From Clostridiales bacterium (GTDB lineage: Bacteria > Bacillota > Clostridia > Oscillospirales > Oscillospiraceae): a stretch of 62,836 nucleotides of DNA. A program made the position numbers and the translations under genes. Under the pieces are notes generated by a model. That model ran no database searches, had not been told where the DNA came from, and worked only from the letters and a program-made list of their open reading frames with translations. Within the stretch, counting starts at the first letter, position 1; each line of letters starts with the position of its first letter. The stretch covers positions 1 to 62,836 of the forward strand of contig JAAVHX010000031.1 of the NCBI GenBank assembly GCA_014799475.1, in the 5' to 3' direction. Positions 4,264 through 22,300 of this stretch are shown here, in pieces.

Positions 4264-4371
<108 letters not shown>

Positions 4372-5352: not shown

Positions 5353-5443
5353 ATTGCTCACTCCTGCTTATAGTATACCATCTGCCGTCTATATAAACAA
5401 GCGGAAAATGAACTGCAACGGGATTTAGGCATCCGGTTGGGAT

Positions 5444-5507
5444 GGTGAGATTTTCACCCTTCATAACTTCTGACAACCTGTGAAAACTGTTGATTTTCAA
5501 GGGTTTT
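5444..5507. repeat. Left-end direct repeat, copy 2
   Basis: This is the second copy of 4308-4371. The sequence just before it (ATCCGGTTGGGATG) only loosely resembles the tRNA-derived core, so if an attachment core existed here it has decayed. No TGTGCGCCAA arm sites follow this copy. Confidence 0.75.
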
Positions 5508-5776
5508 CTATGTTCCAAAAACTATAAACAGGCTGTGCCATCTAAACATCAGAAAGAGGACGCAGGGCGGGTCATAAACGGAACGATTTGTTGTTGACTT
5601 CGACCGAGATATGGGTTATAGCTATATTTTTTTGAACATTTCTGTGTTAAACTCCGCCGCAAGTGTTGAACTTGGAATTTCTGGCGTGTATAAACGCCCC
5701 GCCTTTGGCGGGGTGCCCCCCAGCTTCGCTGGGGGAACGATTGGGCAGGGGCAGAGCCCTGGCCTATGGACAGCGG
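5508..5776 (-). terminator. Two GC-rich hairpins downstream of repL
   Basis: Two hairpins lie at about 5697-5715 (CCCCGCC/GGCGGGG) and 5718-5737 (CCCCCAGC/GCTGGGGG), the likely 3' end of the repL transcript. The rest of the stretch has no supported gene. Confidence 0.5.
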
Positions 5777-6268: not shown

Positions 6269-6339
6269 AACGGATAACCTCCTCGTATAGTACCATTATG
6301 CCACAGCCCATCAAATGCGTCAACACATTTTTGCTGATT

Positions 6340-6445
6340 TAATCAATAAAACAGTATTGAAATTCCAATAACTAAATACTGAAATTTCAGTAGAATCAGA
6401 CATATATATTATATTAATATATAATACTAATATATATATAAAATC
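6340..6445. promoter_or_regulatory. repL: repL upstream region: 16-bp palindrome and AT tract
   Basis: A perfect palindrome TACTGAAATTTCAGTA (6377-6392) sits beside an outer CAGTAT/ATACTG pair and a run of almost pure A/T (about 6401-6441). It lies 110-170 bp upstream of repL. This could be a promoter with operator or an easily melted origin. No direct iterons are visible. Confidence 0.4.
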
Positions 6446-6705
6446 CTCTCCTCTCAATCAAGGGGTAGCCGATCTAATCTGACGGTGTTTTATGATCTAT
6501 CAACCGAATCAGTCTACCGATGGTCAGAACCAGCTGATTTATTAACCAAATCGTTAAACTTGCTTGGACCCAATCTGCTTACGGACTTTTGAGCAGCTCC
6601 TAAAACACGCCCAGTCTTCGGTTGCCCACTTTAGTCGTTCATAAATCGGGATCGCCTATAAGGCTGTTATAAGCGTCTCTGACGCATTCTGTTCAATTTT
6701 ACATT

Positions 6706-6840
6706 TCAATCCACAAGCGTGCCTTCTCGGGCCTCCTGAGCCGCTTTACGGGCTTTCTGCTGTTTCTTAGCCTTTTTGCAGTGAAGCCCAATATCATTCG
6801 TACTCGATTTTGCCCCCTTCCACAACCCCTTTATGCACAT
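6706..6840 (-). CDS. Possible 44-aa basic peptide
   Basis: An ATG at 6840 opens a short frame ending GLHCKKAKKQQKARKAAQEAREGTLVD. It has no clear ribosome-binding site. The lysine-rich helical tail looks protein-like and could be a small gene or the decayed end of a larger one. The other parts of 6446-7134 carry no gene that I can support. Confidence 0.2.
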   Translation of the reverse strand: MCIKGLWKGAKSSTNDIGLHCKKAKKQQKARKAAQEAREGTLVD

Positions 6841-6888
6841 AATCATCTATCACAAACGATGAAAAGTCTGCGACACTCGGTATAGCAA

Positions 6889-6930
6889 AAGCCCAGCCTG
6901 ACCGCGTTCCGCGGCAAGGCTGGGCGCTTT
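6889..6930. terminator. Terminator downstream of the integrase
   Basis: GCCCAGCCTGACCGCG / CGCGGCAAGGCTGGGC forms a strong hairpin with T-rich sequence on either side. It lies about 205 bp beyond the stop of the minus-strand integrase and is the likely end of that transcript. Confidence 0.6.
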
Positions 6931-7134
6931 TATCTCACAAAACAGGCTTCTTCGGGAAGACTTGCGCGCAATGAGCGCGCCGGAGGGTGTTATGTGAATC
7001 AAGATGAAGACAGGCGGGTAATTGCATACGGATTGGGGTGACGGAACGCAGGGGGTGCAGGGTTGGACATAGAACGGGCCGACAGGCTTGACAACCTCGT
7101 CGGTGCTACCCCCAGTTGGGCACCCAGCCTTAAA

Positions 7135-8520
7135 TTATTTCTTGGGTCGCAGCATCACATCCGCGAGGCATTCGCTGGCCTGCTCGTCCGCCTCCTGGAT
7201 GATGTGGGAGTAGATGTCCGTGGTGGTGCTCACCTTCTTGTGTCCCAGACGCTTCGACACGGACACCACGTCAGCTCCGCTGTTGATCAGGACGGAGGCC
7301 ATGGTGTGGCGGAACGCATGGGGATTGATATGGGGCAGATCATGCCGCATGGAGAACTTCCTGAGCCATGCCGTGATGCCGTCCGGTATCATCGGCTCCC
7401 CGTTATCCTTCACGAACAGGAAATCGGTATCGTGCCAGCGGTCTCCGTTGGCCTCGCGCAGCTCGTTGTACCATACCCGGTATTCCCGAAGGAGCTCCAT
7501 GGTCTCGGCAGGGATCTTGACGAAGCGCACTGTGCGTGTCTTGGTGGTGTCTTCGTAAATGCCCCGCTTCGGGGAGTAAAGAAGGTTGGTGTCGATTTTG
7601 AGTTGGTTGTTCTCAAAATCCACCTTGCTCCAGCGCAGACCCATTACCTCCCCGCGACGGCACCCCGTAATCAGCAGCAGGTGCGTGGCGACTCGCCACT
7701 TCAGGGGCTCCTGCTCCAATGCCTCGCGGATGCGGACGACATCATCAAGCTGGAAGTAGTTCACTTCCTTCTGGTCGTTCTTGGGCGGGGTGGCCTTCGC
7801 GGCAGCATTGTAGGGCACCAACATCTCCTTCTCGGCCTGACCCAGTATGGTCCTTATCAGGCGGTGATGCTCCAGAATCGTCTTATTGGCGAGCTTACCC
7901 TCGGCCTTGTAAATATCAAACAGGGCCTTGGTTTTCATTCCCAGTGCCTTGGCAATGGCATCCGCCGTTTTCAACGCGATCTTCTTACCCTGGCAGGCAG
8001 TAGTGATGGTGGTCGCTGACACACCCGACTCCGATGCCAACTGGGCCCGCGTTATATGTCTATCCTTCAAGACTGCATAGAGGTCACCGCGTATTTGGGC
8101 CTTGTCCTCTTTAGTGCTGATACCGGCTTCACCCAGATTATCGTAAAAAGAGTTTAAGTGCTGGGGGCGGATGTCCGTCAGCTTCATATGGCCGATTGCC
8201 GGGTTGATGCGCTCAAGAAGCTCCCGATAACGGTCCAGGGTACGGAATTTAGCCCCGCCCCGCTCTTTCTGCTTCAGCACGTACTCGGCGTACTCAGCGA
8301 ACGTTTGGCGGTTATCGGCCGCATAGCCCAAGTCGAGCTCCTGCTCAAATTCAAAGGCCACACGCTGGACTTCTTTCTCGATTTGCCGCTTGGTCATCCC
8401 GCGCTCCGGAACCCAGGTCTTGTAGTGGCGGATCTGCTTGCCGTTCAGATCGCGGCCTTTTGTGACGGTAATCTTGTAGCTTACACCGCTTTTCCCTTCA
8501 ATGCACTTGATATTTGCCAT
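7135..8520 (-). CDS. int: Tyrosine integrase with an inserted helix-turn-helix
   Basis: The ATG at 8520 follows AAGGAGG. The 461-residue product carries the site-specific tyrosine recombinase residues: R288 (TGCRRGE), K327 (TTKTRT), H401-x-x-R404 (HAFRH), H427 (LGHKK) and Y437 (TTTDIYSHI). The N-terminal part (GVSYKITVTKGRDLNGKQIRHYKTW) is an arm-binding domain. Between the core-binding segment and the catalytic domain, residues about 145-205 form a Cro/C1-type helix-turn-helix (YAVLKDRHITRAQLASESGVSATTITTACQG), absent from standard integrases. That region could bind extra sites or the integrase's own promoter. It most likely catalyses integration at the tRNA-fMet end and excision. Confidence 0.92.
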   Translation of the reverse strand: MANIKCIEGKSGVSYKITVTKGRDLNGKQIRHYKTWVPERGMTKRQIEKEVQRVAFEFEQELDLGYAADNRQTFAEYAEYVLKQKERGGAKFRTLDRYRELLERINPAIGHMKLTDIRPQHLNSFYDNLGEAGISTKEDKAQIRGDLYAVLKDRHITRAQLASESGVSATTITTACQGKKIALKTADAIAKALGMKTKALFDIYKAEGKLANKTILEHHRLIRTILGQAEKEMLVPYNAAAKATPPKNDQKEVNYFQLDDVVRIREALEQEPLKWRVATHLLLITGCRRGEVMGLRWSKVDFENNQLKIDTNLLYSPKRGIYEDTTKTRTVRFVKIPAETMELLREYRVWYNELREANGDRWHDTDFLFVKDNGEPMIPDGITAWLRKFSMRHDLPHINPHAFRHTMASVLINSGADVVSVSKRLGHKKVSTTTDIYSHIIQEADEQASECLADVMLRPKK

Positions 8521-8537
8521 CAGGCGTCCTCCTTAGT

Positions 8538-8886
8538 TCACGATTCTTCTAACTCCGCCTTTGTTTTGCAGAGCTTCATTTTTCGCAGCCATTCAGCGAA
8601 TTCTTCGCGCGTCTTTGTGCCAGCCTTAATTTCATTCTCCCACTTTTTCTTTTCAGCCCTGAAAAACGCAAACATATTCTGCATATTCGCTTCTATCCGG
8701 ATTTCGCTTTGCAAGCATTTGCTTAGAACAGTATATATTTCGGGCCAGTCTCGCCACATCGTCACTTACAACATTTTCATACCACAGCACCTTAGAACCA
8801 TACGCTTTGCACGTTTTTGCGTTATCCTGCGGCGACAGCCTATCGGTATCCTCTAACATGGAGAATTCCTCAACACACTGTGGCAA
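8538..8886 (-). pseudogene. Frameshifted C-terminal remnant of a DUF6076-like protein
   Basis: One minus-strand frame encodes KTCKAYGSKVLWYENVVSDD and then VARLARNIYCSKQMLAKRNPD. The next frame continues IEANMQNMFAFFRAEKKK with the tail EFAEWLRKMK. Joined near 8695 they form one continuous family-like C-terminus; a change of one or two bases there breaks the gene, and the N-terminal part is missing. It sits directly upstream of the integrase. The intact gene at 2879-4084, outside the element, looks like a relative. Confidence 0.6.
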
Positions 8887-9027
8887 ATATTTACGGGCTG
8901 CTTTCTCAGCTTACAGCACGTGCCTATTTCCGTCAAGAAAAATTTAATGAAGATTTGGAGGTGAACAAGCTGGTTATTCTGCATATCTTCACAATCTTCG
9001 CGCATAGCTAAACCCGTGGCAAAACAG

Positions 9028-9060
9028 ATGGCCCTCGCACTGTCCAGTGCGGGGGCCATC
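9028..9060. terminator. Hairpin terminator
   Basis: GATGGCCCTCGCACTG / CAGTGCGGGGGCCATC forms a long stem with a two-base loop and is followed on the minus strand by TGTTTTG. It probably ends minus-strand transcription arriving from the SLH gene region. Confidence 0.55.
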
Positions 9061-9154
9061 TATTCATTGTGTAGGCCATCTTACACGACAGATAGCTTTC
9101 TGTCTATCCCCGTCGTCCCCCCTATCCCCCTTTTTGGACGCCAGCATATAAGGG

Positions 9155-9235
9155 TGTGTCGGCTGTGCCGACACAGTTGTTAAGGACCTACATTTTTGAA
9201 AAAATATAAATACTCACAAGATGTGCCGGCACAGC
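9155..9235. repeat. Paired-palindrome module, copy 1
   Basis: The module reads: TGTGTCGGC joined to TGTGCCGACACA (9164-9175), a 46-bp spacer with CATTTTTGAAAAAAT in the middle, then TGTGCCGGCACA (9222-9233) followed by GC. The first half also forms an exact GTGTCGGC-TGT-GCCGACAC dyad (9156-9174). The same arrangement recurs at 17907-17988, so this is a defined cis-acting module rather than chance palindromes. It lies in the 568-bp gene-free stretch between the SLH gene and the DUF6076 remnant; apart from the terminator at 9028 I see nothing else there. Confidence 0.75.
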
Positions 9236-9454
9236 CAGCACAAAACTTGGATAGAGCATTATGGCATAGCATCCCAGAACATTTTGCCTGGGTCGTGGTA
9301 GAATATACAGAGTGTGGAATAGTGTTTATTCTGATGGGGAAGGAGCTGGGCGATATGCGTAATTTGTGACGTCGCTACATAGTTGAAAATTGCCCGCCAC
9401 GGCCCCGAAGGGACGTGACGGGCAAGCGGTGCGGGTTAATTTTTCAGTTCCGGG

Positions 9455-10816
9455 TTAGTTGCCCCAGAACTCGGGATGGGTCGGCCACTCCTGCTGGCGG
9501 ATGTCGACGTATTCGCTGAGTTTGGCGTTGTAGACGTCGTAGATGGAGTCGCCATATGCGGCGAGACTGGGATTGTAGGCGCCACAATAGTGGATGACGG
9601 GGTAGGGACCTACGATGGGTGTGCCGACGGGGCGGCAGGCGTAGACTTTGTTGTCGCGGATGAACCGGACGTCCAGGGATATGCCGCCGTTGGCCTGGCT
9701 TTTGGGCTTCAGGCTGGTGACGCCCGCGTTGTAGAGCATCTGGCAGACCTCGGCGCGGGTCATGCTGGCGCCCACGTCGCACCGCCCGCTGGCGTCCTTG
9801 CCGCTCACGATGCCCGCCTGGTAGGCCAACAGGACGTCGGCGGAGAACCAGGTGTTGGCGTAGCCGCCGGAAATGGTAGTCTTACCGGGCTCGTCGATAT
9901 AGTTCCAGGCCCAGCTGTAGTCGTGGAACAGGTAGTTGTGCTTGGTGTTGTATAAGCTGTCGCCGGAGGACTTGACGGATGCGGAGCAGACGTCATGATA
10001 GACGTTGGTGATGTCCGCCCAGTCGGGGATGGACGCGCCGGTGGCGTAGACGTTCTTCTTATCACTGGCGTTGTAGACGCTCTGCAGGTTGCCGGTCTGG
10101 CGGAGGACGTTCACCAGCTCGGAAATCGCGAAGCCACGGGTGACGTTCTCCTTGCTCATGGCGACGACGGCGAGGCCGGACATGTCGCGGCTGTAGTACT
10201 TGTCATTGGCAGGAATGTTGTTTGCATCTGTGCCGTAGAGCTTGCCGGCGAGACGGCCGTAGCTGTTATGGTTGATGGTGTCGCCGATGCCCACGGGTTT
10301 ATAGGGCGCGTTGCCGTAGCCCTCGGTGGGGTCGATGCGACTGTCGCCGTAAATCATCAGGGATACCGGGCCGTCCCAGGTCGTCGGACGCAAAGTGAAC
10401 GCGGTGGTGTCATTGTTGGCGGCGGGAACGCCCCAGTTGCCGTACTTGGGGCCGACGTAGCTGGAGGTCAGGTAATTGTTGTTACCAAAAGCGTAGCCGT
10501 TGGTGAAGGTCTGGTACAGCTCGGTCGCTTTGCACCAGTCGCCGTACATCATGTTCCAAAGTACCGTGGCGAGTTCACCGGCGGTCATGGGACGGGTCGG
10601 CTCGAACTTGCCGTTGCCCACGCCGTTGACGATGCCCGCGTCCGCCATGGCGGTCACGGCCTCGTAATACCACGCGTCGGGGGACACGTCGGTGAAGCGC
10701 TGGCCGGTAGTCACGTTGGACGCGCTGGCGGTGAGGGACAGGGCGGGGACGAGCAGGGCGAGCGCCATGGCGACGGCCATGGCCAGCGCGACGACGCGCT
10801 TGTTTTTGATGGTCAT
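9455..10816 (-). CDS. Secreted SLH-domain protein carried by the element
   Basis: The ATG at 10816 follows AAAGGAA. Residues 1-33 are a typical signal peptide (KNKR, then ALAMAVAMALALLVPALSLTASA). An SLH repeat follows at about 38-90 (FTDVSPDAWYYEAVTAMADAGIVNGVGNGKFEPTRPMTAGELATVLW). A second, weaker one lies near the C-terminal third (TWFSADVLLAYQAGIVSGKD...MTRAEVCQMLYNAG). SLH domains attach proteins to cell-wall polymers. The middle is rich in Asn, Tyr and Gly with no domain I recognise. It is an unusual cargo for a plasmid-like element and would change the host surface. Confidence 0.85.
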   Translation of the reverse strand: MTIKNKRVVALAMAVAMALALLVPALSLTASASNVTTGQRFTDVSPDAWYYEAVTAMADAGIVNGVGNGKFEPTRPMTAGELATVLWNMMYGDWCKATELYQTFTNGYAFGNNNYLTSSYVGPKYGNWGVPAANNDTTAFTLRPTTWDGPVSLMIYGDSRIDPTEGYGNAPYKPVGIGDTINHNSYGRLAGKLYGTDANNIPANDKYYSRDMSGLAVVAMSKENVTRGFAISELVNVLRQTGNLQSVYNASDKKNVYATGASIPDWADITNVYHDVCSASVKSSGDSLYNTKHNYLFHDYSWAWNYIDEPGKTTISGGYANTWFSADVLLAYQAGIVSGKDASGRCDVGASMTRAEVCQMLYNAGVTSLKPKSQANGGISLDVRFIRDNKVYACRPVGTPIVGPYPVIHYCGAYNPSLAAYGDSIYDVYNAKLSEYVDIRQQEWPTHPEFWGN

Positions 10817-11670
10817 GAAATCACGTTCCTTTCTATGTGGTCATTCGTAAAGGGGACTTGGTAATTTTTCTTTCACGGCCGCCTTCGGGGCGGGACCCCC
10901 GCCCCACGCGAAAATATTTTCTGTGGTTCGGATAGAACATTACGTGCGGGGACGTATGGGTAACACACATGGCTGACATAGATATGAGCGCGGCTGGACG
11001 GCCTACGATATATAAGATCCATCACAACCGCAGCGTGAAGGACATCATCGCGACCATCGACTGGGTCGAAACGCACAACAACGATAATATTCGGCCCAGC
11101 GTCGTGCTGGTGCGCCTGTACATACATCCCTCCTACGACTGCCAGGGATCAACGGATATGCCAATCCCTCAAAGCATGAAGATCTCAACGGCGCAACCCT
11201 TGGGGAGAGGGACAAGCCCTCCCCCCGCCGAGCCGGGCCGCTGAGATGGCAAAAGCGGCGCAAGGCACTAACCCCGCACCGCATTGAAGCGCTCACACAA
11301 GCCACATTCTGACAATCCCCCCTTGAAAACTCAGGGGAAACGCAGTATCATATGACGTAGGCGCAGTATCTGCTGTGTGGGGAGGTGTAGCTCCCTATGC
11401 AAGGGCGCGGGGGCTGGCCCCCCCCGCGTCCTGCCTTTACTTCTGTCATCTCACGCGACCATTTTACAACAGCTCGACACGTTTTGCAAGGGTTTTGCTG
11501 GACACAGCCCAAATTTTGGGCTGTGTCCTTTGCCGTTTACCTCCCTTCATCGACCACAACTGGGCCGCATGGGCGGCCGAAGATCGATCTTGCCGGACGG
11601 AGCATGGCCGATGATGCGCTGGACGCGGTCCTGAGTTACGGATAGAGGAAAATCTTTGAGCGCAGATACA
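10817..11670. other. Gene-poor stretch with a 29-bp palindrome
   Basis: No gene here is convincing. A plus-strand frame at 10969-11244 (starting MADIDMSAAGRPTIYK) has only a weak ribosome-binding site. The notable feature is a perfect palindrome at 11500-11528, with arms GGACACAGCCCAAA and TTTGGGCTGTGTCC around one T. A hairpin of CCGCC/GGCGG type lies just upstream of the SLH gene. Confidence 0.5.
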
Positions 11671-11705
11671 AAAAAGCTGACCCGTGGGATATCGGGTCAG
11701 CTTTT
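11671..11705 (-). terminator. Terminator of the phosphoesterase gene
   Basis: AAAAGCTGACCCG / CGGGTCAGCTTTT is a Rho-independent hairpin overlapping the stop region of the minus-strand phosphoesterase. The A-run on the plus strand becomes the U-run of that transcript. Confidence 0.8.
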
Positions 11706-12179
11706 ATTCAGCGTTTTGAGCTCAGTATAAATCGTCCCGTTTTCTATCCGCACGATACCATAGCTCGGAGTAGCGATGTTGCTGATGGTTCCCGGATTTA
11801 AGATCTCCATACTCCAGCTTTTGTCTTCAAAGGGGACATGGGTGTGACCAAACAAAACCACACCGGCATCGGCTTCCAATGCGGCGCTGCGCAGTTCCCA
11901 GAAGCTCGCATCGTTTTTGACATCAAAGGTGTGGCCGTGTGCGGCAAAGAACTTCTTGTCCTCAATGGTGGTCCTCAGGATGATCGGCGCGGCCGAATGG
12001 GCGTCGCAGTTCCCCCGAACCGTGTAGACCGTGAGCTGCGGATGTTTTTTCGCCACTGTGGCAATATCAGCCGCGCCGTCACCAAGGAAAAAGACGCAGT
12101 CGGGGTTTTCCTTCTCAATGGCGCGCAGCATATTTTCAGAAGATCCATGGGAATCAGAAAAGACGCAAATAGTTGACAT
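11697..12179 (-). CDS. YfcE/MJ0936-family metallophosphoesterase
   Basis: The ATG at 12179 follows GGAGGTGG. The 160-residue protein has the calcineurin-like metal-binding blocks in order: FSDSHG (D8-x-H10), FLGDGAAD, VRGNCD, FAAHGHTF and FGHTHVPF. It lacks any extra domain, as in the small YfcE/MJ0936 phosphodiesterases that use two divalent metals. The physiological substrate is unknown. It stands alone with its own terminator, between the SLH gene and the structured non-coding region, and could be element cargo or a captured chromosomal gene. Confidence 0.85.
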   Translation of the reverse strand: MSTICVFSDSHGSSENMLRAIEKENPDCVFFLGDGAADIATVAKKHPQLTVYTVRGNCDAHSAAPIILRTTIEDKKFFAAHGHTFDVKNDASFWELRSAALEADAGVVLFGHTHVPFEDKSWSMEILNPGTISNIATPSYGIVRIENGTIYTELKTLNKS

Positions 12180-12427
12180 TTGGCATCCACCTCCAAATAG
12201 GTATAGGCCATTATATCACGTTTATGGGAATTGTGGAAAGAGAAAGCAGGAAAATGTATATGGATTGCTTGGAACATTTGGAACAATCCCGCAAACCATG
12301 TGTGATACCATAGGCCAATCACACGCATCACCGGGACGCAACGCGGCCCCAAATCCCGGCGCCGCCGGGGTCAGGGCACCCCGCAGGGGCAAGCCGTGGG
12401 CCACCTGGCCCCACGGCGCAGTAAGGG

Positions 12428-12860
12428 CCTTGTCCACCCCTCATCGGGGGTGGACAAGGTGGACGGTGCCGCGGAAGCGCACGCCGTCCAGGGCTGTCGG
12501 CTATGCCGACCACATTGCGCGCGTGAGCGAACAATGTGTCAGCCCCCCTTATGCCCTTTGATATATATCCGTGACTTTTGGGAAGTCAACAAATTGATTG
12601 GCGTTTTTCGTTGAGATATCAACAGAAAACGCGGTGTACAGCGCTGCCCAATTCCGGTGTATTTTTGTACACCGTGGTGTAAAGGGCGCCGCAAACCGTT
12701 GCGCCCCAACGGTTTCAAAGTTGAAAAAGTATACCGGATTTTTCAAAAATGACACGCGGTATACAACGTTGACCGGCGTGCAATATGTCCGATAAATGGG
12801 GCAGTTTTCGTCCGGCTCACGGCCCCCTTAAAGACTGCGTAAGCAGTCGGGGCTGTGAGC
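12428..12860. other. Dense cluster of inverted repeats (oriT or origin candidate)
   Basis: Within 433 bases I find seven dyads. They are: 12428-12459 (13-bp stem CCTTGTCCACCCC), 12496-12510 (GTCGGC-TAT-GCCGAC), 12511-12538 (CACATTG/CAATGTG), 12601-12632 (GCGTTTT-TC-GTTGA with its complement), 12655-12674 (CGGTGTA/TACACCG), 12693-12715 (AAACCGTTG/CAACGGTTT) and 12815-12860 (a two-tier hairpin with an inner GACTGC-GTAA-GCAGTC). No coding frame fits. Such clusters are found at transfer origins and single-strand origins, but no relaxase is present to test that. Confidence 0.45.
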
Positions 12861-12950
12861 GGTACAACTTCCGCTATGCGGCCCGCCTGGGCTTTCCCCT
12901 CAGAGAGATTCCATATGGTGTACCGCGTTGCCGCGTTATGGTGCGGCATC

Positions 12951-12991
12951 AAAAAAATACCCCCGCAAAGCGATTTAACGCTTCACGGGGG
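12951..12991 (-). terminator. Terminator of the traG-like operon
   Basis: CCCCCGCAAAGCG / CGCTTCACGGGGG forms a stable hairpin followed on the minus strand by ATTTTTTTG. It lies beyond the dyad array, so the array is probably transcribed as the 3' untranslated part of the traG-like operon. Confidence 0.8.
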
Positions 12992-13040
12992 TGATATGTG
13001 CAGATGATTTTCGTGTGATGGAGCCGGATAGCAAATAATT

Positions 13041-13288
13041 AACCCACTTCGGGGCCGAATTTTGGGCCAAAAGCCCGGTTGGGCTTGGAAAACGGCCCAC
13101 GTTTGGGTCAGTTTTGGTCCAAAATGAGTGATCCGGTTCGGGAATTGGCCCACGTATGGGCTGGTTTTGACCTAACAGCGTGATTTACCCGGAAATCGGC
13201 CCATATTTGGGCCAATCATGGGCCAATTTCCACATTTCGGGTGTGGGTCGGCAATAATTTGCCCACTAAGGGGCCTGGATTGGGCTGC
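13041..13288. repeat. Phased array of five two-box dyad units
   Basis: Box A is GGCCCA-N4-TGGGCC or a close variant, at 13041-13056, 13094-13109, 13147-13162, 13198-13213 and 13260-13275, i.e. steps of 53, 53, 51 and 62 bp. Box B follows about 18 bp after each box A starts and is a perfect odd palindrome in the first two units (TTTTGGGCCAAAA 13060-13072, TTTTGGTCCAAAA 13112-13124), decayed in the rest. The spacing is close to five or six DNA turns, so boxes face one side of the helix. The array lies directly behind the traG-like stop. Confidence 0.75.
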
Positions 13289-13308
13289 TTTCTGAACGAT
13301 TTGTGCCG

Positions 13309-14601
13309 TCACGCGGTCAGCTGCGCGTCCGGCAGGAGTTCCGTCTCCGGCAGATCCTTCCACTTGCCATCACAGCGGCTCTCGGGCAGTTCCCGGTAAC
13401 GCGGATGGCTCTCCAGCTTGAATTTCCTGACCTGCCGGGGAGGTATCCCCCGCGTGAACAGCCACGCGCTGTCCAGGGGCATATTGAGGATGTCGCTGAC
13501 GGGCCGGTTGGCCTTTTTGCTGACGAACGTCGCCGTTTCCACGTCCTGGCCGCCCAGGTACAGGAAGTGGTCGCAGTTGTTCAGGATAGTCAGCGCCTTC
13601 GCGTGGCCGTACAGGGCTTCCAGCTGGGACAGGCTCTGCAGAATGACGCTGACGCTGATCTCCCGGGAACGGACGACGGAGACGGTCTTGTCAAAATCCA
13701 GGATGCAGGTGTTGGCGGCGAAGTCGTCCAAAATGAAGCGCACCGGGACGGCCAGACGGTGGCCGGGGCTTTTGTCCGCGGCGGCGCACAGGCTTTGCAG
13801 CGCCTGGGTGTAGAACAGGTTGGCCAGCCCGTCCAGAGAGCGGTCCGTGTCGCTCACCGTCAGGAACACCGCCGTTTTCTCACGGCCCAGATCCGGGAAA
13901 CGGATTTTTTGCGGGTTCTGAAACAGCGCCCGCGCCCCGTCGAACGTGTAGGGACTGAGGTTCGCCGCCAGGATGCCCAAGATGCTCGAAAACATTTTGT
14001 CCGCGTTCTTCGCCAGCCGGAACATCCGGTACCGGCTGACCGGGAAACAGCCGGGGGCGATCTGCGCCAGCTCCTCGAACAGGTAGTCGAAGGATTTGCC
14101 GCCCATTTCCTGGAGCAGCCGGGATACGGTATGCAGGTCGTGCTCCTCGTCCGGCAGGCATTCCAGGGTATAGCCGATCAGCGCCTCCAGCAGCATCCGC
14201 GCGGACAGATCCCAAAACTGTTCGTGGGAGCTGAGGGGCACCAGACAGGCGGCGATGGTCATGATGTCCTGTTCGCGGTACGCGTCCCGCCGGTCGTCGT
14301 GGCGGACATAATCCAGTGGATTGTACCCCCAGGGGGACGCGAGGCAGTCCGCCAGGTCGATCTCCCGCACCCGATAGCCGCTCCGCTCCAGGACGGGGCC
14401 CACCTCCTGACGCAGGCTGCCTTTCGGGTCGGTGATCAGCATACTTTCGCTGCCCTGCAAAAGGTTGGGCTTGACGTAGCCACGAGTCTTTCCCGCGCCG
14501 CTGGGGCCGATGATCACGTCGTTGTTGTTCAGCCCGGTGGCCCAGGTGTCGCTGCTCACCGTCTGGCCCTCGGCCAGGATCCGATAACCTGTGTTTCTCA
14601 T
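13309..14601 (-). CDS. TraG/VirD4-like ATPase without a membrane domain
   Basis: The start is taken at the ATG 14601, seven bases behind GGAGGG; an ATG at 14616 overlapping the clpP stop is an alternative. The 430-residue product shows Walker A IGPSGAGKT (31-39), TDPKGSL (58-64), Walker B RFILDDFA (288-295) and the downstream VILQSLSQLEALYG (319-332) of type IV coupling proteins. Standard VirD4/TraG proteins have about 600 residues with N-terminal membrane helices; these are absent here and the Walker A motif lies near the N-terminus. It may pump DNA with another membrane partner, or serve as a soluble motor. It is the last gene of an operon and follows clpP directly. Confidence 0.85.
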   Translation of the reverse strand: MRNTGYRILAEGQTVSSDTWATGLNNNDVIIGPSGAGKTRGYVKPNLLQGSESMLITDPKGSLRQEVGPVLERSGYRVREIDLADCLASPWGYNPLDYVRHDDRRDAYREQDIMTIAACLVPLSSHEQFWDLSARMLLEALIGYTLECLPDEEHDLHTVSRLLQEMGGKSFDYLFEELAQIAPGCFPVSRYRMFRLAKNADKMFSSILGILAANLSPYTFDGARALFQNPQKIRFPDLGREKTAVFLTVSDTDRSLDGLANLFYTQALQSLCAAADKSPGHRLAVPVRFILDDFAANTCILDFDKTVSVVRSREISVSVILQSLSQLEALYGHAKALTILNNCDHFLYLGGQDVETATFVSKKANRPVSDILNMPLDSAWLFTRGIPPRQVRKFKLESHPRYRELPESRCDGKWKDLPETELLPDAQLTA

Positions 14602-14615
14602 GTTCCGGCCCTCCA

Positions 14616-15194
14616 TTAAATCTCGTGGATGATGCGGTCCGCCAGACCCCACTCCAGCGCTTCCTGAGCGTCAAAATAGGTGTCCGCGGCGGTCTTTTCG
14701 TAGACCTCCTCAACGGTGTGCCCGGTGCGGTCCGAAAGGATCTGGGCAATGGTCTCCCGGGCCTTCATCAGGTTTCTGGCGACGGCGTCCAGCTTCAGGG
14801 CGCTCCCGCCAACACCGCCCGCGATCAGCGGGTCGTGTATCATGACGCGGCCGTGGGGCAGGATGTCCCGCTTGTCGCCGGACGCGAACAGGAGCGCCCC
14901 CATGCTGGCCGCCAGACCCACGCAGACGGTACGGATGGGACAGCGCAGGGCGGCCATGACGTCGATCAGCGCCAGCCCGTCGTCGATGCTCCCGCCGGGG
15001 CTGTTGACGAAGATGGTGATCTCCTTGGCATCGTCCAGCGACTGGAGATACCGCAGCTGCAAAATGATGGCGTTGACGGACTCGCGGTTGATTTCCCCCA
15101 CGCAGTCGATCTCACGCCGCTGGAGCATCACGTCCTGGATCTCGCAGCGTTGGATGCCCTCGCTGGTCCTTTCAATGACGGCGGGTATGTTCAT
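14616..15194 (-). CDS. ClpP-like serine protease
   Basis: The ATG at 15194 follows AAAGGAG. The 192-residue protein has the ClpP catalytic triad in the expected places: S97 in GLAASMGALLFASG, H120 in RVMIHDP and D171 in TAADTYFDAQEALEWGLAD. The oxyanion motif NSPGGSIDDG is near 64-73. Such proteases normally form barrels fed by AAA+ unfoldases (ClpX, ClpA, ClpC); none is encoded in the element, so it may use a host unfoldase or the adjacent TraG-like ATPase. It is coupled to the genes on both sides: 4 bp overlap upstream, and the traG start lies just beyond its stop. Confidence 0.88.
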   Translation of the reverse strand: MNIPAVIERTSEGIQRCEIQDVMLQRREIDCVGEINRESVNAIILQLRYLQSLDDAKEITIFVNSPGGSIDDGLALIDVMAALRCPIRTVCVGLAASMGALLFASGDKRDILPHGRVMIHDPLIAGGVGGSALKLDAVARNLMKARETIAQILSDRTGHTVEEVYEKTAADTYFDAQEALEWGLADRIIHEI

Positions 15195-15514
15195 ATCGTT
15201 TTTCTCCTTTCCAACTCGGCAAATGGCTTGACCAATACCTGATAGAGCAACTCCCCCAGCTCCCACCGGGGAAGCTCCATACTCTCGGCGACAAAATCCG
15301 CCAGAAGCGGCGCTTCCTCGTATTGGGCAAGGTGGGACAGCAGATTTTTGTCCAGGGTCTCCGTGAGGTCACGGTTATCCCCGACCAGCTCGGCCAGCCC
15401 GTAAAAATATGTGTCCATGTAGAATCGGTAGATGTGCAGGAAATAGGGCGTGGGCTGTTTCGCGCCCGCCTGCCGCAGGCGGTTGGCCAGCGGGATCTTT
15501 TCGATCTGTTTCAT
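15191..15514 (-). CDS. Small operon protein, 107 aa, unknown
   Basis: An ATG at 15514 overlaps the preceding gene's end, and the stop overlaps the clpP start. The protein begins MKQIEKIPLANRLRQAG and is mostly helical with an acidic centre (LVGDNRDLTETLDKNLLSHLAQYEEAPLLADFVAESMELP). I recognise no family. Its tight overlap on both sides implies a role together with the ClpP-like protease. Confidence 0.7.
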   Translation of the reverse strand: MKQIEKIPLANRLRQAGAKQPTPYFLHIYRFYMDTYFYGLAELVGDNRDLTETLDKNLLSHLAQYEEAPLLADFVAESMELPRWELGELLYQVLVKPFAELERRKTI

Positions 15515-15843
15515 GCCCCGCCCTCCCCCTTGACGCAGTGATCGTAGTAATATTTCATCGGGTTTGCCAAAATGCAGGCGGCCTCGCCTGCCGCCCTGGA
15601 GTTCTTGCGGTGCAGGCGGTGGATCCGGCAGGCCGTCTCCTGATAGGTCAGGCCCGAGCAGTCCGGCAGCGAGAGGAGCACGCAGAGCCGTGCCCGCGCC
15701 TCCTCAAACCGGGCCAGATAGTCCGCGATGGGCATTTCCGCCAGGTTCCGAATGACGCTGAGGGTGTACTCCGGGTAGGCAGACCGGCCTTCGTTCACCC
15801 TCTGGACGCGTTCGTCCAGGGGACGGGGTTGGATTTGCTTCAT
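15511..15843 (-). CDS. Small operon protein, 110 aa, unknown
   Basis: The start at 15843 (MKQIQPRPLDERV) follows GGAGAA and overlaps the stop of the truncated pcfJ as ATGA. An upstream ATG at 15900 lies inside the hairpin and is unlikely. The product is helical (YTLSVIRNLAEMPIADYLARFEEARARLCVLLSLPDCSGL) and ends with a basic segment. Its N-terminus resembles that of the next gene (MKQI...P), so the two could be distant duplicates. The function is unknown. Confidence 0.65.
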   Translation of the reverse strand: MKQIQPRPLDERVQRVNEGRSAYPEYTLSVIRNLAEMPIADYLARFEEARARLCVLLSLPDCSGLTYQETACRIHRLHRKNSRAAGEAACILANPMKYYYDHCVKGEGGA

Positions 15844-16889
15844 GATCGGTGTTCTCCTTTCCAATTTCCCCTCTTTCCGGCGCAAAAAGAAAAAGGGCAT
15901 AAAATGGCCGCAGCCATTTCATGTCCTTTTTTCATATTATAGTATACGGGCCGTTCTCCGGGCACCCAGTGGGTCAGCGTGCCTCTGCCATAGGAGTAGT
16001 AGTACGGCTCGGCCGCCACCTCGCCGTCCAGGCCGCGCCGGACGAAGATGCGGGCGTTCTCGTAAATGCTCTCTTTGGGCGCCGGGTGATCACGGTCGTA
16101 GTTATAATAGACTTTCACGATCCGAACCACCACCTCGTCACCGCTGATCCTCTCGACGACCTGGACGGTATCACGGTCATAGTGCCGCCCCATCTTCCCC
16201 ACGGATTTGACAATCAGCTTCCGCTTGCAGTGGGGGCACACGGCCTCGCCGTTGTGCGCCGCGTGGGGAAGCGTGGATCTCTTGCCGCAGGACGTGCAGA
16301 TCCCGGTCACGGGTCGCTTGGCCGATGTGTGCTCACAGCGGAAGTAGGCCGGCATGATAGAGCGGCGTACCCACCCCGCCAACCCACGGGGAAGGACGTG
16401 GAGGGGGCGCATACGCTGGACGATCCGCCGTTCCCGCCCGAGCTGCCGTTCCTTGCACCGCTTGTCCAGGATGGCCGTCTGGGCACAAACCAGCGCGGAA
16501 ATGCCGCCGTGGCCGTGGTCACGGAAGAACCCGCACACGCGCTGCTCGTCCTGGGCGGAATAGAACGCACAGGAGTTGGCGAAGCGGTAATCCTGGCCCA
16601 AGCGCTCAAAAGACGCCGAGCGCCAATGGGTGGAGCCGTCCTCCCTCCGGGCCAGGGTAACGTATTCGCCGCCCGCCTGGAACACCGTCCAGACGGGCGC
16701 GGAATCGCCGCCAGCGGCCCGCCTGCGGTCGTAAACATACAGCACCAGCGTCCGGCGGTGGCCGATGAGCTTGACGGCGGTACGGATGATGTACTTTACC
16801 TGCGGGGCGTGGAGCAGGCCGTGCCCCGCGGGGATGGCGGGGGCGGGGTTGTCCCCGGTGAACTTCCGAAGGGCTTTCTTATCCAGCAT
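15840..16889 (-). CDS. pcfJ: PcfJ-like protein, C-terminal half missing
   Basis: The ATG at 16889 follows GGAGGGG. Residues 1 to about 317 match PcfJ, an accessory protein of pCF10-type conjugative elements. A zinc-ribbon-like segment (GICTSCGKRSTL...EAVCPHCKRKL) lies at about 195-230 and the family block EPYYYSYGRGTLTHWVPGERPVYYN near the end. Full PcfJ proteins continue well past this point. Here the frame instead enters a terminator-like hairpin, reading MKKGHEMAAAILCPFSFCAG, and stops at the next gene. So the gene appears truncated by a deletion that joined it to the leader of the next cistron. PcfJ's biochemical role is not established. Confidence 0.7.
   Translation of the reverse strand: MLDKKALRKFTGDNPAPAIPAGHGLLHAPQVKYIIRTAVKLIGHRRTLVLYVYDRRRAAGGDSAPVWTVFQAGGEYVTLARREDGSTHWRSASFERLGQDYRFANSCAFYSAQDEQRVCGFFRDHGHGGISALVCAQTAILDKRCKERQLGRERRIVQRMRPLHVLPRGLAGWVRRSIMPAYFRCEHTSAKRPVTGICTSCGKRSTLPHAAHNGEAVCPHCKRKLIVKSVGKMGRHYDRDTVQVVERISGDEVVVRIVKVYYNYDRDHPAPKESIYENARIFVRRGLDGEVAAEPYYYSYGRGTLTHWVPGERPVYYNMKKGHEMAAAILCPFSFCAGKRGNWKGEHRS
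15890..15932 (-). terminator. Intra-operon hairpin at the pcfJ 3' end
   Basis: AAAAAGGGCATAAAATGGC pairs with GCCATTTCATGTCCTTTTT around a CGCA loop, with only two weak positions, and a T-rich tract follows on the minus strand. It has the form of a Rho-independent terminator lying inside an operon, upstream of the small genes, clpP and traG, so it may act as an attenuator. TATACTATAAT just before it could supply a -10 element. Confidence 0.7.
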
Positions 16890-16901
16890 ATCCGCCCCTC
16901 C

Positions 16902-17765
16902 TTACATCAGGCTGATCTGTTCCATGCCGGCGCCCGCCGGCTTCTCAGCTTTGGGCTTTGCCGCGCCGGATGGCTTTTTCCCTGCCTTGCCCTGGGCTTT
17001 TTTACGGGGCGTAGGTACAAAAGGTTTTGGCGTGAAAGTTTCATCATCTTTATGATCCTCCTTGGCGTTGGGGTCGTTGAAATAGTCCTTGGCCCACTGG
17101 TAGCACAGGCCGTCCGGCACGTCCAGGCCATAGACGCCGGTACGCTCGATGCCGTTGTCCTTCATCTCCTGCTCGGCGTACTCCTGGGCCTTCCGATTGA
17201 TGTATCGGAAGCAGTTGACCATGGACTTATCAGGGTCCATGACCAGCATGGCAAACGCGGCATCCTCCCGGCACTTGGCGCTGATATGCTCGGCCACGGC
17301 TTCTTTCATGTTGCGGCGGGTCAGCCGCTCGGTGTCGGCGGCGATGCGGCCCATGGCCGCTTCCAGCAGCTCGGCGTCGTTCATGGCTTTGAGCCGGTCG
17401 AGCGCGTCCTGCCGCTTGGCCTTCTTCTCGGCCTGCTTGGCGTCGAACTCGGCCTTGCGCTTGGCCTCGGCCGCTTCGTGGGCCTGCCGGGCGGCGGTAT
17501 CGTCCGGGGCCTGGGCAGCGTCCCCCGACACGGACAGCTTCACCTCGGGCGGCGGCGGGGTATGGGCGGACGGCGCGGCTTCGGCCCTGGACGCTGGGGC
17601 GGGTTCCCGGTCAACGGGCGTCTCAACAGTGGACACAGTGCTGGTTTGGGAAGGCCCTTGGGAGACTCCCTCGGGGGCGGCGGAAACGACCGGGGCAGGG
17701 GGCTTCGGCGTGGTCTGGACCGGCTGGCCCGCCGTGCCCGCGCTCAGTTTCGTCAAATATCCCAT
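16902..17765 (-). CDS. pcfK: PcfK-like conjugative element protein
   Basis: The ATG at 17765 follows GGAGG. The first ~95 residues are a low-complexity Pro/Ala/Ser linker, followed by a charged coiled coil (RKAEFDAKQAEKKAKRQDALDRLKAMNDAELLEAAMGRIAAD, 115-157). The PcfK-like domain spans about 155-225, with CREDAAFAMLVMDPDKSMVNCFRYINRKAQEYAEQ and VYGLDVPDGLCYQWAKDYFND. A Lys/Pro-rich tail follows. PcfK and PcfJ genes are found side by side near relaxase genes in pCF10-like systems; here the relaxase is missing. The role is unknown. Confidence 0.75.
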   Translation of the reverse strand: MGYLTKLSAGTAGQPVQTTPKPPAPVVSAAPEGVSQGPSQTSTVSTVETPVDREPAPASRAEAAPSAHTPPPPEVKLSVSGDAAQAPDDTAARQAHEAAEAKRKAEFDAKQAEKKAKRQDALDRLKAMNDAELLEAAMGRIAADTERLTRRNMKEAVAEHISAKCREDAAFAMLVMDPDKSMVNCFRYINRKAQEYAEQEMKDNGIERTGVYGLDVPDGLCYQWAKDYFNDPNAKEDHKDDETFTPKPFVPTPRKKAQGKAGKKPSGAAKPKAEKPAGAGMEQISLM

Positions 17766-17906
17766 CGTGAAAAACCTCCATGTCTTTTATGAGGGGCAGG
17801 ACACAGCGGCCCGCGCCGCACCCTACCCACATGATTTCACCCGCGCTCCCGCTGGCGTTCCGCCAGCCCCGGTTTTCAGGGCCGGTTATTGGACGTCACC
17901 GCAAAT

Positions 17907-17988
17907 TGTGCCGTCTGTGCCGGCACAAATAGATTGGCTCCACATTTTTTCAAAAATGGAAACAACAATAGAGATGTGCCGGCACAGC
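17907..17988. repeat. Paired-palindrome module, copy 2
   Basis: TGTGCCGTC joins TGTGCCGGCACA (17916-17927); CACATTTTTTCAAAAATGG occupies the middle (17941-17959); TGTGCCGGCACAGC follows at 17975-17988. The palindrome starts are 59 bp apart, against 58 in copy 1, and the middle and right parts align base by base with 9155-9235. It lies about 140 bp upstream of pcfK in the 376-bp gap, where a promoter operator would be expected. No other feature is evident in the gap. Confidence 0.75.
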
Positions 17989-18141
17989 TGACACGGGTGT
18001 CCTAATACGTCCGTAATCCCCGGCGCACCTGTCGGGCCGGGCGTTTTCCGCCCGGCCCGACTTTTCTAAAAAAGCAGTTGCAATCCACTTCCAATTATGT
18101 TAAAATATTATCAATCTATGGGCTGTCCGTAGCTTGGGATT

Positions 18142-19245
18142 TTAGGGCCGATGATTTCCTTCTTCCATCGCTCGCCGAAGCCGGGCCACCACCCTGGCGA
18201 CTACCGGGTCATTGGAGAAGCTGTCCCCCTTCGTCCAGTCCTCCGATAACCATTCCCGGCCATCGTGCCGGATCAGCAGATCCACGGCGGCAATATCGTC
18301 CTTGGTGACGCCCAGCCGCTTGTCGGCCTGCTCGCTGGCAACGTAGCGCCGGATGGCGTCATCCAGGGACAGCCCGCTGGTGAACTGTTCCTCCGGTGTG
18401 TTGATGTCCTCTATCACGTACCAGTCGTAGCAGTGAGGGACATTCGGATCGGCGGCATCCCGAAGCTTTCGACGGCCGCTTTCTGTCAGGCCCAGCCCCC
18501 GCTTTTGGTTGACGAAGCAGGACAGGTAGGCTTGGTAATCGCCCGGCGTGGGATTGCATCGCAGGCGGAAAACGTAGCGGTTTGTTTCAAGCACATAACC
18601 GTAGTTTTGGCAGCAGGTACCGCCCGTGATCTCGCCGTCGTGGCTGCGGCAGTATCTGCGCATGGAGGAGATATCCTTTAGGACGCTCTGCCGCAGGTCG
18701 TTGACCACCTTGTCCAGTTCCGCTTGGAATTCCGGCGTGTTCAGTTCCTGGGGACCCCTGGGCCACCACGTATGGTGGAACTCCGCTCCGTCGCCCCCGA
18801 AGTCAATACGGACGTGACCGATGGTGCCCAATTCCTCGTCCCTTTCCGGGGGCAGGGCAAAGAAAAGCTCCGCCTCATCGGGAGAAGCGGGGCGCAGCTT
18901 ATGGCGGAGCGGCGTTTCAGGGCAGCGGATGCGTTCGGCGTCGCAGAACCTCGCCAACGTGACCGATTCCCCGGTCAGCTGGAACATCCCCTTGATCAAC
19001 CTGCTCCGGGAGCGTCCGTTCTTCAAGGGCAGGTAGGAGAGGACGGAGGCCAAACGGTTTTCGTCCTCCTGGGCGCCGTCCACCAGCGCATAGGGGATCT
19101 CCGGCTCCTTCACGGTGCCGCGCAGGTCATAGCAGTACCAGCCCTGGGGGACGTCTTCACGGGGAATGGGCCGGGTACTGTACAGGACGGAAGCTCCGAA
19201 CAGGCGCGCGGCCCGCAGCTCATCTTTGTAAATGTTGGCATACAA
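18142..19245 (-). CDS. Element protein of unknown function, LPD-like (367 aa)
   Basis: The start is a TTG at 19245 about 11 bases behind AAGGAG. The N-terminal part (GWYCYDLRGTVKEPEIPYALVDG) resembles small polyvalent-protein-associated (LPD) domains of mobile elements. The centre holds four cysteines and histidines in RRYCRSHDGEITGGTCCQNYGYV, a possible metal site, followed by RYVFRLRCNPTPGDYQAYLSCFVNQ. The C-terminal part (RLGVTKDDIAAVDLLIRHDGREWLSED) is another compact unit. It sits between the methylase/helicase and pcfK. No enzymatic motif is visible and the function is unknown. Confidence 0.7.
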   Translation of the reverse strand: MYANIYKDELRAARLFGASVLYSTRPIPREDVPQGWYCYDLRGTVKEPEIPYALVDGAQEDENRLASVLSYLPLKNGRSRSRLIKGMFQLTGESVTLARFCDAERIRCPETPLRHKLRPASPDEAELFFALPPERDEELGTIGHVRIDFGGDGAEFHHTWWPRGPQELNTPEFQAELDKVVNDLRQSVLKDISSMRRYCRSHDGEITGGTCCQNYGYVLETNRYVFRLRCNPTPGDYQAYLSCFVNQKRGLGLTESGRRKLRDAADPNVPHCYDWYVIEDINTPEEQFTSGLSLDDAIRRYVASEQADKRLGVTKDDIAAVDLLIRHDGREWLSEDWTKGDSFSNDPVVARVVARLRRAMEEGNHRP

Positions 19246-19362
19246 TGCGTCAGCATCTCCTTATTCATTTATCTCGTAATCCCACTTGAGGGTGGCGCAG
19301 CCGCCCTTTCACCCCAACCTACGAGGGCGGCCAGACCGAAGCCCGACCGCCCTCATGACTTG

Positions 19363-22300
19363 TTACGCGGCCGCGTCCTCTCCGCCCCTGTGGCCGATGT
19401 GGAGCTGGGCGTCCAGCTCCACCAGGCGGGCGGACTTGCGTTGAAACTCGTCCTCACGGGGGAACGGCTTGCCGACCTCGGCCCTGGCGGCTTCCATTTG
19501 CTGCCGCAGATTGGCAAGCTGGGCCTGCCGGCGGTTCAGTAGCTCCGGGAGCTCGGCGAGAGCATTGTCGATCCTGGTGATGTTGCCGCGCGGGTCTGGG
19601 CCAAGTTCGACGCGATACGTCCCAGCATTCTTCAGTGCCAGGACATGATCGAGGCCAGCAAAGGCGGCGAACAGGACAAAGCCCCGGTAGCTGCCAATCT
19701 CGATGTAGATGTTCTCCGTGATGTCCGCGCAGGCGTCCAGCAAGGCGGTGCCTGCTTCCACCCTGGCGCCATAGGCGGCGCCGTGGACCACCATGCCCAC
19801 GAAGCCGTCCGCTGGGTGGGGATGCTCCGCAAGCACCTCAATGTCCGCCTGCATAGCGGCAATGGCCTTCTCGGCGTCGGCAATCTCCTTGGGGTAGTAT
19901 TTCAGCAGGCTGTCCTCCATGCGGAACTGCTGGTTTTGGTGGTCGGCCCGCATGATCTTGAGCCGGGCCACGTCCGTGTCCAGCTCCATGCGCTCCTTGA
20001 TACGGGGATCACCGGCGCACAGGGCCTTGATCTCCGCGTAGGACAGCGCCTGCTCGTCCACGTCGTCGCAGGACCGCACCGGGGATTTGCTGGTCATGAT
20101 CTGGCTGATGAACTTCTGTTTGTTCTCAATGGTCTGCCACAAATACGCATCGAAGGTGCTCTCGGTCACGTAGCGGTAAATATGCACCTTCTTGTTCATA
20201 TTGTTGCGGCGGACGATCCGCCCAGCCCGCTGGGTCAGGTCACGGGGCCGCCAGGGACAATCCAGGTCATGAAGGGCTATGAGCCTGTCCTGAATATTCG
20301 TACCCGCACCCATCTTCTGCGTGGAACCGATCAGGACGCGCACCTGTCCGCTGCGGACTTTGGCAAAGAGGACTTTCTTCTGCTCGTCTGTATTGGCGTC
20401 ATGGATGAACGCGACCTGCTCCGGGGCCATGCCCCCGGCGATGAGCTTCTGCCGGATGTCGTCGTAGATGGTGAAGCCGCCCTTGGCCGACGTGGGTGTG
20501 GAAATATCGCAGAAGATCAACTGGGTCAGCCGGTCCGCCTCGCCATCCCGCCAATGCCGCAGGACGTTGGCGACGCACTTGTTGACCTTGGTGCCGGGTT
20601 CGTCCGGCAAGGCCGGGTTGATGATACGCTGATCCAGACCCAGCTTCCGCCCGTCGCTGGTGATCCGCAGCATATTGTCGATATGTGCGTCAACGGCGCC
20701 GGAGTGGACCTTCGCGGCGCGCTTGGAAAGCTCCTTCACCATGGCCTGCTGGTGGGCGGTGGGCTTGGACACCACGGTATGGTACTCCACCTCGGGTACG
20801 GGCAGGTTGAGCTGGTCGGCGGTCTTGATGTCCGCCACTTCCCGGAACATGGCTATCAGCTCCGGCAGGTTGAAGAATCTGGAGAACCGGGTACGCGCCC
20901 GGTAGCCGGTGCCCTCCGGGGCAAGCTCCAGGGCCGTGACCGTCTCGCCGAACCGGGAGGCCCAGCAGTCAAAGTGGCCCATGCCCATCTCCTGGAGGCG
21001 GTCGTACTGGAGATAGCGCTGGATGGAATACAGCTCCGTCATGCTGTTGCTGACGGGCGTGCCGGTGGCGAAAACCACGCCGCGATTGCCGGTGATTTCG
21101 TCCAGATAGCGGCATTTCGCGAACATATCCGACGATTTCTGGGCGTGGGCCGTAGACAGCCCGGCCACGTTGCGCATTTTCGTGTACAGGAACAGGTTCT
21201 TGTACAGGTCGCTCTCGTCCACGAACATCATGTCCACGCCCAGCTGCTCGAAGGTGACCACGCTGTCCTTGCGATGGCTGCCCTGGAGCTTTTCCAACTG
21301 CCCCTCCAGCTCCTTCTTGGTACGCTCCAGCTGCTTGACGGTAAAGTGCTCACCGCCGCTGTCCTTGACTTCCCGGATGCCCTCGGTGATCTCCCAGATC
21401 TGATCCCGGATAAGGCGTTCCTGCCGCTCCTGGCTGACCGGGATCTTCTCGAACTGGGAATGCCCGATGATGACGGCATCGTAGCCGCCGGTGGCGATGC
21501 GAGCGCAGAACTTCTTACGCTTGCGAGTTTCAAAATCCCGCTTGGTGGTCACGAGGATGTCAGCGGCGGGGTACAGCCGTAGGAACTCGGCGGCGGTCTG
21601 CTGGGTCAGATGGTTGGGCACTACGAAGATGGACTTGCTGCACAGGCCCAGCCGCTTGGCCTCCATGGCGGACGCGATCATTTCAAACGTTTTCCCGGCC
21701 CCAACCTCATGGGCCAGGAGGGTGTTCCCGCCGTACAGCACGCGGGCGATGGCGTTGACCTGGTGGGGCTGGAGCCTGATCCCCGGATTGATGCCGGAGA
21801 ACACGATGTGCGAGCCATCGTACTCCCGGGGCCGGATGCAGTTCATGGTGTCGTTGTACAAATGCACCAGCGCCTGCCGTCGCTCCGGGTCCTTCCAGAT
21901 CCAGGTCTGGAACGCGTCGCGGATGGCCTGCTGCTTCTGGACGGCCAGGGTGGTCTCCTTCCCGTTGATGACGCGGCGGTCCTTGCCGTCCGGGTCGGTC
22001 ACGGTGTCGTAGATACGCACGTCCCGCAGGTTCAGGCTGTCCTCCAGTATCTCATAGGCGCTGATCCGCCTGGTGCCGTAGGTGGTGTACGCCGCCACGT
22101 CGTTGTAGGGGACGCCGTTCTTGCCGGAGATGAACCACTCTGCCGTGTGGGGCGAATACTGCACCTGGACACTGCGGTGGAGGGACGCCGGGGTGTTGAA
22201 CATCTCGTACATGAACTGCTGGTAGTAGCTCTTGTCGATCCATGTGGCACCGATGCGCACCTCAATGTCGGACGCTTCCAGGTCCTTGGGCTGTACGGCC

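Follow-up and report, generated by a model that had tools for sequence, protein, structure and literature searches.

Five related repeat units were found side by side in non-coding DNA of an integrative mobile element in the window, the 62,836-nt stretch of DNA analysed here. The array is real, though its units have diverged. As read from the sequence, it may be a set of binding boxes on duplex DNA for one protein, laid out in iteron fashion within an origin-type control region; we hold this leading reading tentatively, as somewhat short of probable. The boxes and a structured element about 0.5 kb away would form the non-coding control region of the mobile element, of a kind common to integrative elements and of which no description was found in the searches made. 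If this is a true origin, it would explain replication or transfer of the element after excision. The box arrays beside the folded element offer a tangible starting point for identifying the initiator or accessory protein.

Anatomy of the repeat array

The unit cores were located as follows.

13041..13072, plus strand: unit 1; box A AACCCACTTCGGGGCC at 13041-13056, box B TTTTGGGCCAAAA at 13060-13072, the latter exact
13094..13124, plus strand: unit 2; box A GGCCCACGTTTGGGTC, box B TTTTGGTCCAAAA at 13112-13124, the latter exact
13147..13177, plus strand: unit 3; box A GGCCCACGTATGGGCT, box B degenerate
13198..13228, plus strand: unit 4; box A GGCCCATATTTGGGCC, the sole exact one, box B degenerate, with TGGGCCA
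13260..13290, plus strand: unit 5; box A TGCCCACTAAGGGGCC, box B degenerate

A sequence-only reading had reported five copies of GGCCCA-N4-TGGGCC at 13041, 13094, 13147, 13198 and 13260. These positions and the steps of 53, 53, 51 and 62 bp between them were confirmed, but units 1 to 5 carried 3, 1, 1, 0 and 2 mismatches, respectively, the only exact copy being that at 13198. The second palindrome reported, TTTTGG-N-CCAAAA (box B), was exact in its first two copies (13060 and 13112) and kept its distance from box A, the first T of its core being 13.5 bp away from the centre of box A in unit 1 and 12.5 bp in units 2 to 5; in units 3 to 5, however, only a degenerate core was present.

Matches to box A with up to 3 mismatches numbered 94 in the whole window against a shuffle mean of 76.7. 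This count is only mildly high, and the evidence for the array is therefore the clustering of its boxes. Autocorrelation gave a top lag of 52 (z about 3), no better than that of control loci, and a motif-free repeat search was used instead. With 32-bp search windows, the five units were recovered in one register with a score of 83, compared with a mean of 63.6 and a maximum of 71 in 200 dinucleotide shuffles. Search windows of 25 bp recovered four units in register, with unit 4 off by 11 bp (score 70, shuffle maximum 61), and those of 40 bp also recovered four, with unit 5 off by 11 bp (score 97, shuffle maximum 81). Among 209 fixed 311-bp stretches of the window, which begin every 300 bp and thus divide the array itself between two of them, the best score in this test was 81. 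Tandem Repeats Finder did not report a 53-bp array, the units being too diverged. A pattern of boxes A and B derived from the array gave seven matches in its own genome, five of which were the array itself and two of which lay outside.

When the units were aligned on the centre of box A, positions -12 to +24 (approximately 37 bp) formed a shared core with a mean pairwise identity of 0.58, which rose to 0.62 when unit 1 was shifted by 1 bp. Identity outside the core was 0.27-0.28, which is the chance level (0.25 from base composition); since the core was picked for conservation, its contrast with the rest is partly built in, and it is the linkers, at chance level, that are informative. The letters AA, CCCA, GGG, TG and C were invariant across units. 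The unit is best read as three putative half-sites of the form TGGGCC, spaced by 10-12 bp, of which one is inverted and two are direct. With at most 1 mismatch, TGGGCC occurred 26 times in the 260-bp array, that is, 10 per 100 bp versus 1.8 elsewhere in the window, an upper figure as overlapping registers were counted.

The steps had also been taken to place all boxes on one face of the DNA. For the box steps, R at 10.5 bp was 0.87, with P = 0.015 under random steps of 45-65, but P was 0.13 once the two equal 53-bp steps were granted, and the best period in the range of 5-20 bp was 8.75 bp rather than the 10.5-bp helical turn. In the relatives described below, the box-A steps were 50, 94 and 50 (locus L197), or 41 four times in a 41-bp repeat of five copies (locus L133). 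Phasing as a family property was thus not shown.

Host element and gene surroundings

The array lies within an element that carries an integrase and is bounded by direct repeats. The following features were delimited.

4258..28863: host element as delimited here, with 51-bp direct repeats at 4258-4308 and 28813-28863, of which the right-hand copy extends into tRNA-Met
5777..6268: RepL-like gene, 6 kb from the structured element
7135..8520: integrase
12419..12559, plus strand: structured element (RNA or single-strand DNA) with an outer stem, side hairpins and a three-way junction; core GTCGGCTATGCCGACC ... TTATGCCCTTT
12633..12923: GGTGTA/GTATAC boxes between the structured element and the array, a candidate second set with positions read from the sequence
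12959..12992, minus strand: terminator-like site, 14 pairs followed by ATTTTTTT, from a consensus scan only
13309..14652, minus strand: traG-like ATPase of the VirD4/CD1115 family, neighbour of the array
14616..15266, minus strand: clpP-like gene, which pairs with traG in relatives
28058..28444: SSB gene

Besides traG and clpP, the host element encodes an SLH protein, a phosphoesterase, a PcfK-like protein and a large SNF2/methylase protein. Of the ORFs in 12185-13305 with 25 aa or more, only one (12031-12561) was scanned against Pfam, and no family was found in it.

Several minor observations were made on the host element. The gene at 15840-16889, which we take to be PcfJ-like, matched only phrog_8470 (unknown function) in the protein libraries. 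It is cut near 15940, having 349 residues compared with 651 in G018:C112, the C-terminal half of which is absent from the window; approximately 100 bp beside the break match DNA of L133 and L135. The tyrosine integrase has a Cro/C1-type helix-turn-helix match at residues 150-198, between its SAM-like and catalytic domains. Direct repeats near the element ends, at 4308-4370/5444-5506 (63 bp, 94%) and 4424-4446/28719-28741 (23 bp, exact), are possible arm sites of this integrase. TTTTTCAAAAATG occurs at three sites (9191-9243, 12739-12751 and 17906-17994), two of which have TGTGCCGGCACA palindromes, in three copies.

Structured element and relatives of the array

The structured element was first noticed as a blastn match at 12486-12559 common to the window, L130, L133 and L136, its full extent being 12419-12559. 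Nine copies are known, including that of the window, five more in three genomes of the genus, and three on IMG/VR contigs. An alignment (A4) and a model (R1) were built on six copies (window, L130, L133, L135, L136 and L137); they stem from four genomes of a single genus, which limits their independence. Searching 42 genomes of the genus with model R1 returned only the same six places, in 4 genomes. Among 26 sources, the model also found L197, on which it had not been trained (61 bits, E 3.8e-11); L210 and L209 gave 55 and 43 bits, respectively, and are less independent, both having been picked by an element-derived pattern. In the nine-copy alignment, which was fitted to the model and leans towards it, 96.2% of cells were paired and 26 of 41 pairs had changed on both sides, compared with 4-8 double-changed pairs in a control with slid partners; double-changed cells numbered 50 versus 12.9 in shuffles, and none of 500 shuffles was as high. 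No Rfam 15 family reached the gathering cut-off in the window region, and relaxed searches yielded three weak matches there and four in five relatives, all far below the cut-off. RNA and single-strand DNA are not distinguishable from these sequences.

A TGGGCC-like array was present on the 3′ side of five of the nine copies, about 70-1010 bp away (window, L130, L133, L136 and L197), and absent beside the other four (L135, L137, L209 and L210). The densest stretch of exact GGCCCA/TGGGCC in the locus lay just 3′ of the structured element in four of seven loci (window, L130, L136 and L197) and elsewhere in L133, L135 and L137. The array thus travels with the structured element, though not in every copy. 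Box-rich loci carried the structured element in 3 of 4 cases versus 6 of 157 for the others (P 0.0005), a comparison that is only indicative because the loci were fetched for other reasons and the ORF mask drops L136. Other repeats lay on the same (3′) side in two copies: seven AGTGTAA in 900 bp in L209 (3′ side of 8783; reached by 3 of 200 shuffles) and seven GCGAAAA in 900 bp in L210 (3′ side of 3620; 0 of 200). L135 and L137 had no notable repeated 7-mers there, and the top 7-mer count alone was unexceptional in the window, L133 and L197 (55, 59 and 11 of 200 shuffles, respectively, gave one as high). The 5′ sides were weaker, the strongest being L130 with five copies of one 7-mer (18 of 200 shuffles). 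As for neighbouring genes, D5/DUF5906 helicase genes were near three of the nine copies (L197, L210 and L130), with no D5 homologue in the examined stretches of L133, L135, L136, L137 and L209; serine recombinase genes were near the copies in L136 and L137, and an SSB gene was within 1-2 kb of those in L133 and L135.

Stretches from these loci were compared with the window array by local alignment, scored in the orientation of the structured element against 300 shuffles. L197, the one of six IMG/VR stretches found with a box-B plus box-A pattern that carries an array, scored 46 against a shuffle maximum of 38 (other strand 31, reached by 2 of 300). Its match to unit 1 reads TTCGGGGCC-(G)AATTTTGGGCCAAAAG-(TA)-CCCG, with 29 identical letters and indels of 1 bp and 2 bp; its boxes have 4-nt loops, and one of its four box-A copies has box B at the distance seen in the window. 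L133 carries a TGGGTT array, spotted on reading the region, which is reversed relative to the structured element; the match scored 31 against a maximum of 28 (other strand 21, reached by 90 of 300) and shares part of unit 1 (20 of 23 letters). The GGCCCA clusters of L136 and L130 were found by counting exact TGGGCC/GGCCCA over the loci then collected, and scored 28 (shuffle maximum 26) and 27 (reached by 4 of 300), respectively, with 21 on the other strand in both; these two loci share only short boxes with the window. Control stretches from L135 and L137 scored 14-19, within their shuffles. The whole unit or much of it is found in just three loci. Four others that ranked high in the exact-box count (L096, L075, L095 and L091) were open-frame repeats.

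Wider searches added little. A three-unit pattern picked out 61 stretches in IMG/VR, none of them alike on reading; a two-unit pattern had no match there and 15 in genome contigs, all of which read as other tandem or coding repeats, and L211 and L212 were taken to be chance matches. A family search of 400 genomes returned the own genome and two single matches. By blastn, 12200-13310 had no match in plasmids and 12900-13310 none in phages, and nothing was found for the L197 array in either. Scans of IMG/VR with traG and pcfJ gave no relatives; such scans detect close relatives only, since L197, with a traG of 57%, emerged only via the box pattern.

The array had been linked to the traG-like gene behind which it lies, and this link was dropped. 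The A+B pattern was found behind traG in none of 21 other clpP-traG loci, which were chosen at 41-59% traG identity and examined over 447-1482 bp behind traG; one of them (L008) has a single box A. Nor did the pattern occur anywhere in 73 fetched traG loci, which overlap and are partly the same places as the 21; these had at most 4 exact boxes per 255 bp. A further locus, G012:C117, was inspected by eye alone. L197 has both the array and a clpP-traG pair on one contig, about 7 kb apart. Because the pair stands in L033-L039 with no other element genes nearby (within up to 20 kb), the traG-like gene may here have nothing to do with transfer. The pairing of clpP with a short VirD4-like gene (13309-15900; L033-L039 and L197), found apart from other element genes in the surroundings compared, is an observation in its own right; the sole PADLOC result was a weak match of mad8 to the traG-like protein.

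Candidate function and alternatives

Conservation confined to the boxes, recurrence in either orientation and the lack of compensatory changes in the box-A arms (0 pairs in the units compared) suggest binding of a protein to duplex DNA. To this extent the earlier proposal of a multi-protein binding site finds support as an interpretation of the sequence, the unit or part of it recurring in two other elements and being reversed in one, while the phasing and the tie to traG that came with it are not. The position in a mobile element, the folded neighbour, the replication genes in part of the copies and the boxes differing between elements would together point to an origin-type site. What we infer, namely protein binding, origin function and the identity of the protein, may be put as follows. 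In each unit, two inverted TGGGCC half-sites would make up box A, and box B would add a third 11-12 bp beyond them. The region is most likely an origin-type site, at which an initiator or accessory protein encoded by the element would load onto the boxes and set off replication of the excised element, or its transfer as a single strand. Weighing against this reading are the four copies of the structured element that lack a TGGGCC array, the merely short boxes in common with L130 and L136, the unexceptional 7-mer counts of the window, L133 and L197, the small number of loci with the unit, and the lack of a D5 homologue in the window, where RepL is 6 kb from the structured element. The absence of Rfam matches above the cut-off agrees with the earlier remark that no described family is known, as does the literature searched, in which nothing describing the array was found.

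Several other explanations were considered. The array might act as RNA, transcribed together with the structured element or with the traG 3′ UTR, its hairpins working as a large structured RNA, a sponge or a stabiliser of the mRNA end. In keeping with this, it lies between the traG stop and the minus-strand terminator-like site, which would serve transcripts running from traG through the array; the boxes of L197 have 4-nt loops, the adjoining structured element covaries strongly, and both strands of the array folded better than all 200 shuffles. However, the folding scores show no strand preference (z -3.95 and -3.78), which together with the lack of compensatory pairs in box A argues against a function as RNA only; the opposite orientation of the L133 array relative to the structured element and the Rfam result also speak against it, and we consider an RNA function rather unlikely. 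Decay of a tandem duplication without function would account for the similar steps of 53, 53 and 51 and for the lack of an array both next to the L135 and L137 copies of the structured element and behind traG in the 21 clpP-traG loci. Uniform decay would not leave boxes 0.62 identical with the rest at chance, and the unit recurs in L197 and partly in L133, so that this explanation is unlikely.

An operator array, on which a regulator of the element controls a nearby promoter, would suit palindromic half-sites 10-11 bp apart, as for a dimeric regulator, and promoter-like matches are in excess in 12100-13400 (5 versus 0.9 in shuffles), two of them at 12721-12755 and one inside the array (13229-13258, plus strand, 9/12). 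Nevertheless, the one inside the array points into the 3′ end of traG, and no gene start was seen beside the array: what borders it is the end of traG, and the phosphoesterase gene begins at 12179 and has its own promoter-like site at 12210-12239. We regard operator function as distinctly improbable. Least credible is a centromere or partition site; several boxes are clustered in a mobile element, as such a site would have them, but a Pfam scan of 26 ORFs of the element region found no parA or parB family, and the spacing is not preserved in L197 and L133.

The preferred reading, iteron-like boxes at an origin-type site, was compared with known systems. Iteron-type replication origins occur in plasmids and in phage satellites, SaPIs among them. 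One report presents the PLE RepA_N iterons as an iteron-type replication origin of a phage satellite (PMC7145576). Like such origins, the array has several semi-palindromic boxes in a non-coding region of a mobile element, with box sequences differing between elements; the window thus has the repeated non-coding copies of a single box that are expected of an iteron origin. As for an initiator gene, a D5/DUF5906 helicase gene lies near 3 of 9 relatives of the region. Iteron origins differ in using short adjacent iterons, whereas the units here follow one another at 41-62 bp (94 in one case, in L197) and contain as many as three half-sites. Unlike them, the region also has a conserved folded element about 70-800 bp from the array and no D5 gene in the window, and its initiator is only inferred. 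In the oriT regions of conjugative elements, sites for accessory proteins occur in arrays. The array resembles these in having several putative dimer sites within non-coding DNA of a transferable element, but no relaxase family was found by Pfam in the 26 ORFs (several ORFs without any family could hide one), and the array is not tied to traG in relatives. REP/BIME sequences are clusters of palindromes and, like the array, lie just past a stop codon ahead of a terminator-like site; the array, however, is not dispersed, blastn finding no second copy in its own genome and the A+B pattern only two matches there outside it. GOLLD and ROOL are large structured RNAs of mobile elements. They share with this region a structured non-coding element in mobile DNA, but no Rfam 15 family reached the cut-off in the window region and box A lacks covariation.

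The AGTGTAA and GCGAAAA repeats of L209 and L210 lie as element-specific iterons would. A broader and more speculative possibility, to which we give only a small chance, is a new class of mobile-element origins. In these, the covarying folded element (RNA or single-strand DNA) would serve all members as a platform for loading, whereas the 3′ box arrays (TGGGCC, AGTGTAA or GCGAAAA) would be swapped between elements and provide element specificity.

Tandem arrays combining CCCA-N4-GGG boxes with other units were also observed in Treponema (L146, L150 and L156) and Tannerellaceae (L152, L153 and L158), with several arrays per genome bin.
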